Assembly: GCA_937864535.1 (NCBI GenBank)
Contig: CALMJS010000030.1
Coordinates: 1 to 64,000, forward strand
Direction of reading: 5' to 3'
Length of the DNA stretch: 64,000 nucleotides
Origin: an uncultured Paracoccaceae bacterium
GTDB lineage: Bacteria > Pseudomonadota > Alphaproteobacteria > Rhodobacterales > Rhodobacteraceae
Positions 47,527 through 50,155 of this stretch are shown in pieces. Position numbers and translations under genes: made by a program. The notes beneath the pieces were generated by a model. It saw only the letters and a program-made list of their open reading frames with translations, ran no database searches and was not told the DNA's origin. The first letter of the stretch is position 1. Each line of letters opens with the position of its first letter.

Positions 47527-48660
47527 ATGAGCAAACTAGGTGTTGGCATCATCGGATGCGGCAACATTTCGACCACCTACCTCAAATACGCGCCGCTGTT
47601 TAAGGCGCTCGAGGTTCGGGCCGTCGCGGACATCAACCCCGCCGTGGCACAGGCTCAGGGCGCGGCCTTTAACGTGCGGGTCGAAACGGTCGAGGACATC
47701 CTCAAGGCCAAGGACATCGACGTCATCGTGAACCTGACCATTCCCGGCGTTCACTATGCGGTCACTAAGCAGATCCTCGAAGCTGGCAAGCACGCCTATT
47801 CGGAAAAGCCGCTGGTTCTGACCCTCGACGAAGGCAAGGCCCTGCGCGATCTGGCAGAGGCCAAGGGTCTGCGCGTCGGCTCTGCTCCGGATACGTTCCT
47901 TGGTGGGGCGCATCAGGCAGCCCGTGCGGCGATCGACAGCGGCAAGACCGGCAAGATCATCGGCGGCACCTGCCACTTTATGGGTCACGGCATGGAAGGC
48001 TGGCACCCGAACCCCGACTTCTTCTTCCAGCCGGGCGGCGGCCCTGTTCTGGACATGGGTCCCTACTACATCACCAACCTCGTTCAGTTGATCGGGCCGG
48101 TGAAATCGGTATCGGCCATGTGCGCCGCGACCTTCCCGACCCGGACCATCGGCAACGGCCCGCGCAATGGCGAAGTGATCCCGGTCGAAACCCCGACCAA
48201 TATCCACGCCCTGCTGGAGTTCGTGAACGGCGCCATTGTCACGCTGGGCGTGTCGTGGGATGTCTGGGCGCACCGTCATCCGAACATGGACCTCTACGGC
48301 GAAAATGCCTCGCTCTATGTGCCGGACCCGAACTTCTTTGCCGGGGATGTCACACTGACCGGCGCGGACGGCACTGGCGTTCTGCTGGATCACGACGGCC
48401 ACCCGTTCAGCGTTTGCAATCAGGAAAACCACCTGAATCAGCCGATCGCGAACTATCGCTGTGCCGGTCTGGCGGACATGCTGTCGGCCATCGACGAAAA
48501 CCGCCAGCATCGCTGCAACATCGATCTGGCTGTCCACGTCACCGACGTGATGACCAGCATCCTGAAGGCAGGCGAAACCCGTGGTTGGGTCGATATGTCG
48601 ACCACCTGTGACCGTCCTGACGCGCTGAGCGCGGATCAGGCCCGGGCACTGATGGTCTGA
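47527..48660 (+). CDS. Gfo/Idh/MocA family oxidoreductase
   Basis: A 377-residue NAD(P)-dependent dehydrogenase. The Rossmann motif is GIIGCGNISTTYLKYA, the catalytic lysine is in AYSEKPLVLT, and GGGPVLDMGPYYITNLVQL carries the second active-site motif. It is 12 bases after the TIM-barrel gene and is the last gene of the LacI-controlled operon. Its 3' end overlaps a small ribbon-helix-helix gene on the other strand by 25 bases. The exact sugar substrate is unknown. Confidence 0.88.
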   Translation: MSKLGVGIIGCGNISTTYLKYAPLFKALEVRAVADINPAVAQAQGAAFNVRVETVEDILKAKDIDVIVNLTIPGVHYAVTKQILEAGKHAYSEKPLVLTLDEGKALRDLAEAKGLRVGSAPDTFLGGAHQAARAAIDSGKTGKIIGGTCHFMGHGMEGWHPNPDFFFQPGGGPVLDMGPYYITNLVQLIGPVKSVSAMCAATFPTRTIGNGPRNGEVIPVETPTNIHALLEFVNGAIVTLGVSWDVWAHRHPNMDLYGENASLYVPDPNFFAGDVTLTGADGTGVLLDHDGHPFSVCNQENHLNQPIANYRCAGLADMLSAIDENRQHRCNIDLAVHVTDVMTSILKAGETRGWVDMSTTCDRPDALSADQARALMV

Positions 48661-48836
48661 TGATCCGGTCGGGCCCGAACCGCAGCAGCGGATTGGGCCC
48701 CATCGCGCAACGCCAATTCGCGGCGTAGCGCAGCCTCTAGTATCGTAGGGACATCGACTCCATCGCGGAGTGAGACCTGCCGCAAAGCAGCCTCCATGGT
48801 GTCGGTCACCCAAAAGGAAAGGGTCAGACGTTTCAT
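48636..48836 (-). CDS. small ribbon-helix-helix-like DNA-binding protein
   Basis: A 66-residue protein whose first 45 residues look like an Arc/CopG ribbon-helix-helix fold: a short beta strand KRLTLSFWVTD, then two helices (TMEAALRQVSLRDG and VPTILEAALRRELALRDG). The tail is disordered. The start codon and its GGG-containing ribosome site lie inside the hairpin at 48818-48850. The 3' end overlaps the Gfo/Idh gene. Family assignment rests on pattern only; it could be a chance frame, but the composition is protein-like. Confidence 0.5.
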   Translation of the reverse strand: MKRLTLSFWVTDTMEAALRQVSLRDGVDVPTILEAALRRELALRDGAQSAAAVRARPDHQTISARA

Positions 48837-48850
48837 ACGTCTGACCCTTT
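48818..48850 (-). terminator. 14-bp-arm hairpin; rlmN terminator and/or control element of the small gene
   Basis: AAAGGGTCAGACGT (48818-48831) and its exact complement (48837-48850) enclose a five-base loop. On the minus strand the loop reads ATGAA, which is the start codon of the small gene. It begins 23 bases after the rlmN stop and is followed by TTTCCTTTT, so it can act as the rlmN terminator. Confidence 0.7.
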
Positions 48851-48872
48851 CATGATTCTGGTTTAGGGGCGG

Positions 48873-50054
48873 TTAAAGACCGGCTTCGGATTCGATCTGC
48901 GCCCGCGATTTGCGTTCCCGTTCCGTCGCGGATTTCAGCTGACCACAGGCGGCCATGATATCCTCGCCGCGCGGGGTACGGATCGGGCTGGCATACCCGG
49001 CCTCCATCAAAATGGTCGCAAAGGCGCGAATACGGTTGTTCGACGACCGTTTATACGGCGCACCGGGCCATTCGTTGAACGGGATCAGGTTCACCTTGGC
49101 CGGAATGCCATCCAGCAATTTCACCAGACGATGTGCGTCGTCAAAGGTATCGTTCACCCCGTCGAGCATCACATATTCAAAGGTGATCCGCTCGCTATTC
49201 GTCGCCTTGGGGTATTCGCGCAGCGCGTTCAGCAGGGTTTCGATGTTCCATTTCTTGTTCACCGGAACCAGCACGTCGCGCACAGCATCGGTTGTGGCGT
49301 GGAACGACACAGCCAGCAGACAGCCGATTTCCTCGGCGGTGCGGGCGATTTCCGGCACCACACCAGAGGTCGACAGCGTAATACGGCGGCGTCCCAGCGC
49401 AATGCCTTCGCCATCCATGCAGATCTTCATCGCATCGCGGACGTTTTCGAAATTGTACAGCGGCTCGCCCATGCCCATCAGAACGATGTTCGAGAGCAGG
49501 CGCGGACCTTCGTCGCCCGTCCCGGTGCCGGGCGCGGGCCATTCGTCCAGATCGTCGCGTGCCAGCATGACCTGACCCACAATTTCGGCGGCAGTCAGGT
49601 TGCGAACCAGTTTCTGCGTGCCGGTATGACAGAACGAACAGGTCAGCGTACAGCCAACCTGCGACGACACGCAGAGCGTACCGCGGCCTTCCTCGGGGAT
49701 ATAGACAATCTCAACCTCATGGCCGCCGGCGATGCGCACCAGATATTTGCGCGTGCCGTCTTCGGACACCAGTTTGGTGACCAGCTCGGGCCGCGCGATC
49801 ACGAAATGGTCGGCCAAGAGTTTGCGGTAATCCTTGGACAGGTTGGTCATCACGTCAAAATCGGTGACACCCCAATGATAGACCCACTGCCACACCTGAT
49901 TCAGGCGCATCTTGGCCTGCTTTTCCGGCGTCCCTGCCTCGATCAAGGCGGCGCGCATCTGGTCGCGCGTCATCCCGGCCAAATTCTTGGCTCCTTCGGG
50001 GATTTTGCGCGGAATGGTCAGAACGTCTTGGGTAATGGGGGCAGTTGCGGTCAT
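48873..50054 (-). CDS. rlmN: dual-specificity 23S rRNA/tRNA adenine C2-methyltransferase
   Basis: A radical-SAM enzyme that methylates A2503 of 23S rRNA and A37 of some tRNAs. The protein has 393 residues. The cluster motif is [11 protein letters not shown] (C-x3-C-x2-C). [19 protein letters not shown] and STSGVVPEI are RlmN signatures, and the catalytic cysteine is likely the one in IMAACGQL near the C-terminus. GAGG lies five bases before the ATG at 50054; an ATG at 50087 has no site. Confidence 0.95.
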
Positions 50055-50155
50055 GGCGGCCTCGGATGCAGCTAGATGGGCGCTCATATAGGATTCGGGG
50101 CGAAATTCAAAAGAATTCCGCCCGTCAGCAGGTAAATTCTCGGCCTTGGCCTAGG

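Follow-up and report, generated by a model that had tools for sequence, protein, structure and literature searches.

How is a gene expressed when its start codon lies in the loop of a long, perfect hairpin, and what does the hairpin do there? The question is raised by a locus in a 64,000-nucleotide stretch of DNA from an uncultured Paracoccaceae bacterium, which was analyzed as a whole and is referred to here as the window.

A perfect hairpin downstream of rlmN encloses a start codon

On the minus strand of the window, rlmN (48873..50087), which passes TIGR00048, is followed by a 66-codon gene for a predicted ribbon-helix-helix (RHH) protein (48636..48836), with its ATG at 48836 and its stop codon inside the end of a convergent GFO/IDH/MocA oxidoreductase gene on the plus strand (47527..48660). 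As open reading frames in the window, the RHH frame shares the last 25 nt of the oxidoreductase gene. The hairpin spans 48817-48851 and starts 21 nt past the rlmN stop codon. Read on the minus strand, its two 15-bp arms, one base pair longer than given in the preliminary description of this DNA, are 100% complementary and enclose the loop ATGAA (48832..48836) with the RHH start codon. The 5' arm, GAAAGGGTCAGACGT (48837..48851), contains the ribosome-site-like string AAAGGG, as had been claimed, and doubles as the -10 and start region of the promoter predicted below. The 3' arm (48817..48831) is coding, and in addition to codons 3 to 6, which had been assigned to it before, it takes in the end of codon 2 and part of codon 7.

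The hairpin is not a chance feature. Of 41 inverted repeats found in the window, the 25 longest were compared, and no other of these contains as long a perfect repeat; by chance, 64 kb should hold approximately 0.0009 perfect repeats of 15 bp with a loop of 3 to 10 nt. When the 24 nt located 5' of the ATG were shuffled 20,000 times, no shuffle reached 15 bp and the maximum was 13 bp. As RNA, the hairpin region folds at -37.5 kcal/mol (z score of -6.4), and none of 200 shuffles folded as well. An origin in a repeat family was ruled out by the hairpin being single copy in the genome with up to 3 mismatches allowed, and an Rfam search of positions 48500-49000 at an E value of 1 matched no known RNA element.

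The form of the hairpin on the minus strand fits the earlier proposal of a terminator, with a GC-rich stem followed by a T-containing tail, CTTTTGGG (48809..48816), which together with the terminal TTTC of the 3' arm reads TTTCCTTTT. This tail is only moderately T-rich. A terminator scan listed the site on the minus strand only, and the tail on the plus strand is T-poor. Since the scan total of 2 sites per 1.5 kb was near the level of shuffles (1.2, with a standard deviation of 1.2), the listing by itself is no evidence for a terminator, and what stands of the proposal is the minus-strand anatomy.

The overlapped frame is a real gene for a predicted RHH protein

The preliminary description had read the frame starting in the loop as RHH-like, a reading borne out by the occurrence of family members 3' of rlmN, by purifying selection, and by a structural model. 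The AlphaFold2 model, built from a 4-row alignment (mean pLDDT of 76.1 and pTM of 0.61), has a strand at residues 3 to 7 followed by helices at residues 12 to 25 and 29 to 45. This predicted strand-helix-helix arrangement of about 45 residues resembles those of small RHH factors and antitoxins such as CopG, CopASO, and Pfam RHH_1 members, and the fold matches included the DNA-binding domain of the CopASO antitoxin (6iya_C, TMt of 0.82) and CopG (1ea4_B, TMt of 0.65), both with E values above 0.001; no fold match was as good as an E value of 0.001. RHH proteins are dimers that contact DNA via their strand. Unlike CopG, CopASO, and RHH_1 members, the window protein matched no family in either Pfam or NCBIfam at an E value of 1, has no toxin gene beside it, and is linked to rlmN. 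RHH_1 was passed, barely, by two of 10 relatives scanned (L024 and L031), and a sequence search of solved structures returned only two matches, both to an enzyme and with E values above 1.

Within one genus represented by three species, RHH proteins differed at 11 to 15 synonymous and 0 to 1 replacement codons per 60, and rlmN differed in the same comparison at 107 to 119 synonymous and 8 to 14 replacement codons per 360, indicating purifying selection on the RHH protein. The window frame is a real gene, and its product is a predicted RHH DNA-binding protein. Other identities for the gene were considered and rejected. A toxin-antitoxin module was dismissed as no toxin gene adjoins it, its neighbors being rlmN and the oxidoreductase gene; a mobile gene was dismissed after a plasmid search at an E value of 1 gave no match; and a phage gene was dismissed after none of 84 pattern matches in viral contigs was confirmed.

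Comparison of genomes suggests that the RHH family is patchily distributed across one bacterial family, in many genera and often directly after rlmN. When the window protein was used as the query, two of 394 genomes of this bacterial family matched, its own included; in the other (G312), the RHH gene also lies 3' of rlmN, with a gene assigned by reading as patatin-like in between. A two-row profile at a loose E value of 1 matched 215 of the 394 genomes, most of them weakly, and a 15-row profile at an E value of 0.001 matched 47 of 325. Seventeen of these 47 matches came without a locus and were left out of the member set, which consists of 36 distinct RHH members, each with its start set at the ATG nearest the profile start. 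An rlmN gene lies 5' of the RHH gene on the same strand in 24 of the 36, the RHH gene following the end of the rlmN match after 36 to 1409 nt; the other 12 have no upstream same-strand rlmN within the flank examined. Among 21 RHH loci (L016-L036, the window's included), 18 contain an rlmN gene followed on the same strand by the RHH gene, the exceptions being L033, L034, and L036. In G049 and G284, the RHH gene likewise abuts the same convergent oxidoreductase gene.

Some members are longer (130 to 190 aa; L024, L025, L029, L030, L032, L036, L038, and others), with about 100 extra C-terminal residues. In the two scanned, L024 and L025, this extra part has a weak likeness to TraI/MobP relaxases (best E value of 4e-5, under the curated cutoff). 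Several of the longer members without rlmN in the flank examined still have the promoter box described below.

Most RHH genes share a CtrA-like putative promoter box at -37 to -40

Comparison with control ORFs shows that a motif shared by the family, a putative promoter box, is real. A TTAA-N7-TTAA box with at most one mismatch is located at -37 to -40 in 27 of the 36 members versus 1 of 769 control ORFs; the Fisher p value of 1.5e-41 is only nominal, since the controls were mechanically chosen (ORFs of at least 200 aa from the same loci, starting at the first ATG, some overlapping). Among the remaining nine members, eight have a box with two mismatches at -37 to -40 and one has no box there. 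In an earlier set with four starts shifted by hand, a box with at most one mismatch occurred within 70 nt in 20 of 24 members versus 0.47 in shuffles. The box is identical in all three species of the L019 genus. In the window, the CtrA-like box TTAACCGCCCCTAAA (48862..48876, minus strand) has one mismatch to TTAA-N7-TTAA and is located at -40, its first half lying over the rlmN stop codon.

Further bases recur between the box and the ATG in the 35 members with no more than two box mismatches. Counted from the ATG, A-11 occurs in 23, T-7 in 23, and G-4 in 22 of the 35, with p values of 5e-9 for A-11 and 2e-9 for T-7 at positions picked post hoc; counted from the box, the numbers are 24, 17, and 26, respectively. 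CtrA-activated promoters of Rhodobacter sphaeroides have the box end 23 to 24 nt 5' of a purine start, an invariant A-11, and a conserved G-4 (PMC6180460), and the Caulobacter ctrA P2 promoter has its box at -39 (PMC4287350). The RHH promoters resemble those of R. sphaeroides fla2 and Caulobacter crescentus genes in the TTAA-N7-TTAA type of box (PMC6180460, PMC4287350), and they would also agree well in the spacing of 23 to 24 nt from box end to start, with A-11 and G-4, but only with the start codon as the point where transcription begins. By this analogy, we infer that CtrA is the likely factor and that transcription probably begins at the ATG. The fla2 genes have 12 to 33 nt from start site to start codon (PMC6180460), and a distance of 0 to 1 nt is predicted here. 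A leaderless Caulobacter gene whose CtrA motif stands at -32 is described in PMC4287350.

In the window, transcription is predicted to start at 48836 or at 48837, just 5' of the ATG. With the A of the ATG as +1, A-11 and G-4 are off by one; they fit if the start is the T just before the ATG, a pyrimidine. The putative -10 hexamer, AAGGGT (48844..48849, minus strand), retains the frequent A and T of the family when anchored on the box. A search of the window's own genome for exact TTAAC-N6-TTAAC gave six matches (two forward and four reverse) versus zero and two for the reversed-pattern control, numbers too small to be read further.

A GAATC site lies between the box and the hairpin in the window (48854..48858, minus strand), and such sites occur at -20 to -22 in 7 of the 36 members (the window, L018, L019, L021, L029, L035, and L172). 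GANTC is given as the CcrM methylation motif in PMC4287350. The recurrent GAATC could add CcrM-type methylation to a CtrA-like promoter.

The frame is conserved across genera and the hairpin is not

The preliminary description had proposed aligning the gap in relatives to see whether hairpin and frame are conserved together. Across genera the frame was found to be conserved and the hairpin was not, which suggests that the two have different histories. In the 35 other members, no perfect stem that has the ATG in its loop exceeds 7 bp, even when loops up to 40 nt are allowed; L025 has an 8-bp stem with the ATG inside an arm rather than in the loop. Only 4 of the 18 members within 260 nt of rlmN (the window, L025, L027, and L122) have a stem of at least 8 bp between the two genes, and none was found in 14 of the 17 others with loops up to 40 nt. 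Thus, separation of the RHH gene from rlmN by a stem is not a general need.

The window's RlmN places its genome, at 94%, in the genus of Paradonghicola geojensis FJ12, now Marivivens geojensis, and the species is taken here to be a Marivivens. Within this genus, the RHH gene was found in none of six other genomes at an E value of 0.01. As the hairpin is absent from members in other genera and the sister species lack the gene, the hairpin appears particular to the window species among the genomes compared. Three of the sister genomes (G394, G395, and G396) retain the convergent oxidoreductase gene and have a different, terminator-style hairpin in the gap before it, with arms of 12, 10, and 10 bp, respectively; in G398, G117, and G397, the oxidoreductase gene is absent from the flank examined, and G398 and G117 have a 7- to 8-bp repeat at the end of rlmN. 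In G395 and G396 (loci L011 and L012), a near-identical 72-codon gene occupies the position of the RHH gene, between rlmN and the 10-bp hairpin and oxidoreductase gene.

The three sister gaps bear on whether the hairpin is a plain terminator that ends transcripts of rlmN, and perhaps of the oxidoreductase gene, with the ATG in its loop being an accident of squeezing. These gaps hold hairpins of similar style where the RHH gene is missing, the window hairpin closely follows the rlmN stop codon, and its GC-rich stem flanked by A and T is like those of intrinsic terminators between convergent genes. Unlike such terminators, its loop holds the start codon of another gene and the place where transcription of that gene is predicted to begin, and its plus-strand tail is weak. 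Counting against a plain terminator, the minus-strand tail is just moderately rich in T, and the frame truly belongs to the family and has the family box in place, so that even an accidental overlap with the start site is not without consequences. We regard a plain terminator as a doubtful account that nevertheless deserves to be taken seriously.

Perfect palindromes can also arise by template switching, and L025 offers a second long repeat at an RHH locus. At L025:1393-1458, between rlmN and the RHH box and ending before the box, lies an inverted repeat of 23 perfectly paired bp around a 20-nt loop. On visual inspection, the arm of this repeat looks similar to the DERLVAPLRALLA-coding stretch of other long members (e.g., L024), as though part of their coding sequence had been inserted at this site as an inverted copy. 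The window hairpin may be a mutational footprint, left when template switching placed a copy of the coding arm in the promoter, with no part played by selection. Its arms match perfectly even though one of them, the 5' arm, is noncoding, short repeats lie at the same place in some relatives, and the L025 repeat indicates that such repeats do arise at the RHH locus. Against a footprint stands the absence of the gene from all six same-genus genomes compared, which leaves the ancestral state of the hairpin out of view. We consider this origin decidedly unlikely.

Relatives show a mild excess of short repeats around the start codon

As duplex DNA, the 35-bp palindrome could be an operator at which RHH dimers bind and repress their own promoter, the RNA hairpin being a by-product, and this role had been suggested in the preliminary description. 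Repeats whose loop contains the start codon are indeed in mild excess in the 35 relatives, with a mean of 3.66 bp versus 3.10 bp in shuffles for loops up to 12 nt and 4.51 versus 3.78 bp for loops up to 20 nt (0 of 200 shuffles reaching the observed mean in either case), and no such excess is seen in any of four control sets, each of 35 ORFs. In the flank one step further upstream, repeats averaged 3.29 versus 3.13 bp, a value reached by 30 of 200 shuffles. Repeats spanning the start include GGGTCA/TGACCC in L004, GGTCATG/CATGACC in L019, and GGTGAG/CTCACC in L018. With loops limited to 8 nt, however, the excess is weak, with 29 of 200 shuffles reaching it in the 35 members and 9 of 300 and 16 of 300 in an earlier set of 23, and 26 of the 35 have no repeat of at least 5 bp centered between -1.5 and +5. 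LTL-type codons dictate part of the 3' half-site. Moreover, within the three-species L019 genus, the repeat is damaged in two species although the protein is almost identical, suggesting that the repeat is not maintained there. An operator of this kind therefore seems unlikely to us. A conserved operator at a fixed place was rejected, as none of 171 symmetry centers dominated in the 35 relatives (best z scores of 3.1 at -9 and 2.8 at +5).

The palindrome may act only on read-through RNA from rlmN

The explanation that we favor, with moderate confidence, is that the window carries a CtrA-class leaderless RHH gene whose species-specific palindrome works as a terminator and start hider only on read-through RNA from rlmN. 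The RHH gene would be an old neighbor of rlmN with its own CtrA-class promoter, the box of which lies over the rlmN stop codon, and transcription would begin at the ATG or one base 5' of it, making its own mRNA leaderless or nearly so. In the window species, the segment from the -10 region through codon 7 would have turned into a perfect palindrome. RNA reading through from rlmN would fold the hairpin and terminate intrinsically, and in any read-through RNA escaping termination, the ribosome-site-like string and the start codon would be concealed. For transcripts from the gene's own promoter, the 5' arm would belong to the promoter and be missing from the RNA, so that no hairpin would form and the gene would be translated. 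The hairpin would thereby uncouple rlmN transcription from the RHH gene, and RHH expression would rely on its own promoter. The case for termination is the form of the hairpin. RNA from the ATG onward (56 nt) folds at only -9.7 kcal/mol, with 142 of 200 shuffles folding as well, and the minimum-energy fold leaves its first 19 nt unpaired. Points against a leaderless gene with a palindrome acting on read-through RNA are the one-base offset of A-11 and G-4 in the window, the lack of a stem of at least 8 bp in most other members near rlmN, and the AAAGGG string 5' of the ATG, which would serve no purpose if the mRNA were leaderless.

RNA from the oxidoreductase gene would meet the hairpin from the other side, after crossing nearly the whole RHH gene in antisense, and because of the poor plus-strand tail we claim no working terminator for it. 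Were oxidoreductase RNA to end at the hairpin, its 3' end would be antisense to nearly the whole RHH gene (48661-48836).

The preliminary description had viewed the hairpin as a translation lock, which would require that the 5' arm be part of the mRNA and that initiation wait for the stem to open. The stable fold, the AAAGGG in the stem, and the ATG in the loop all agree with a lock. The promoter geometry of the family, however, would start transcription at the ATG and leave the own mRNA without the 5' arm, so that a lock on this mRNA is unsupported, and relatives do without the hairpin. We consider such a lock very unlikely, and the idea survives for rlmN read-through RNA alone.

These roles could also be combined, with the one 35-bp palindrome serving, in duplex form, as RHH operator over the CtrA-driven start site and as both terminator and start lock on RNA from outside, and being escaped by a CtrA-started leaderless mRNA. 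Only such an mRNA would escape the palindrome, because its transcription would begin in the loop. If this improbable combination were true, translation of the RHH gene would depend entirely on mRNA from its own cell-cycle promoter.

A candidate regulator downstream of CtrA

In open-license literature, we found no paper linking the ribbon-helix-helix or CopG family with CtrA in alphaproteobacteria or Rhodobacter, and none on CtrA in Marivivens, which is weak evidence of novelty since only open-license papers were covered. Curated profiles miss the RHH member in the window. The layout preferred here, a leaderless gene overlapped by a hairpin acting on read-through RNA, suggests how a terminator can silence read-through and leave the overlapped gene untouched, because the RNA of that gene would begin in or beside the loop. 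For the bacterial family, promoter comparison and analogy with known CtrA promoters point to a patchily distributed group of small RHH proteins, seemingly under direct CtrA control and made from leaderless mRNAs, that may represent a candidate regulator acting downstream in the CtrA network.
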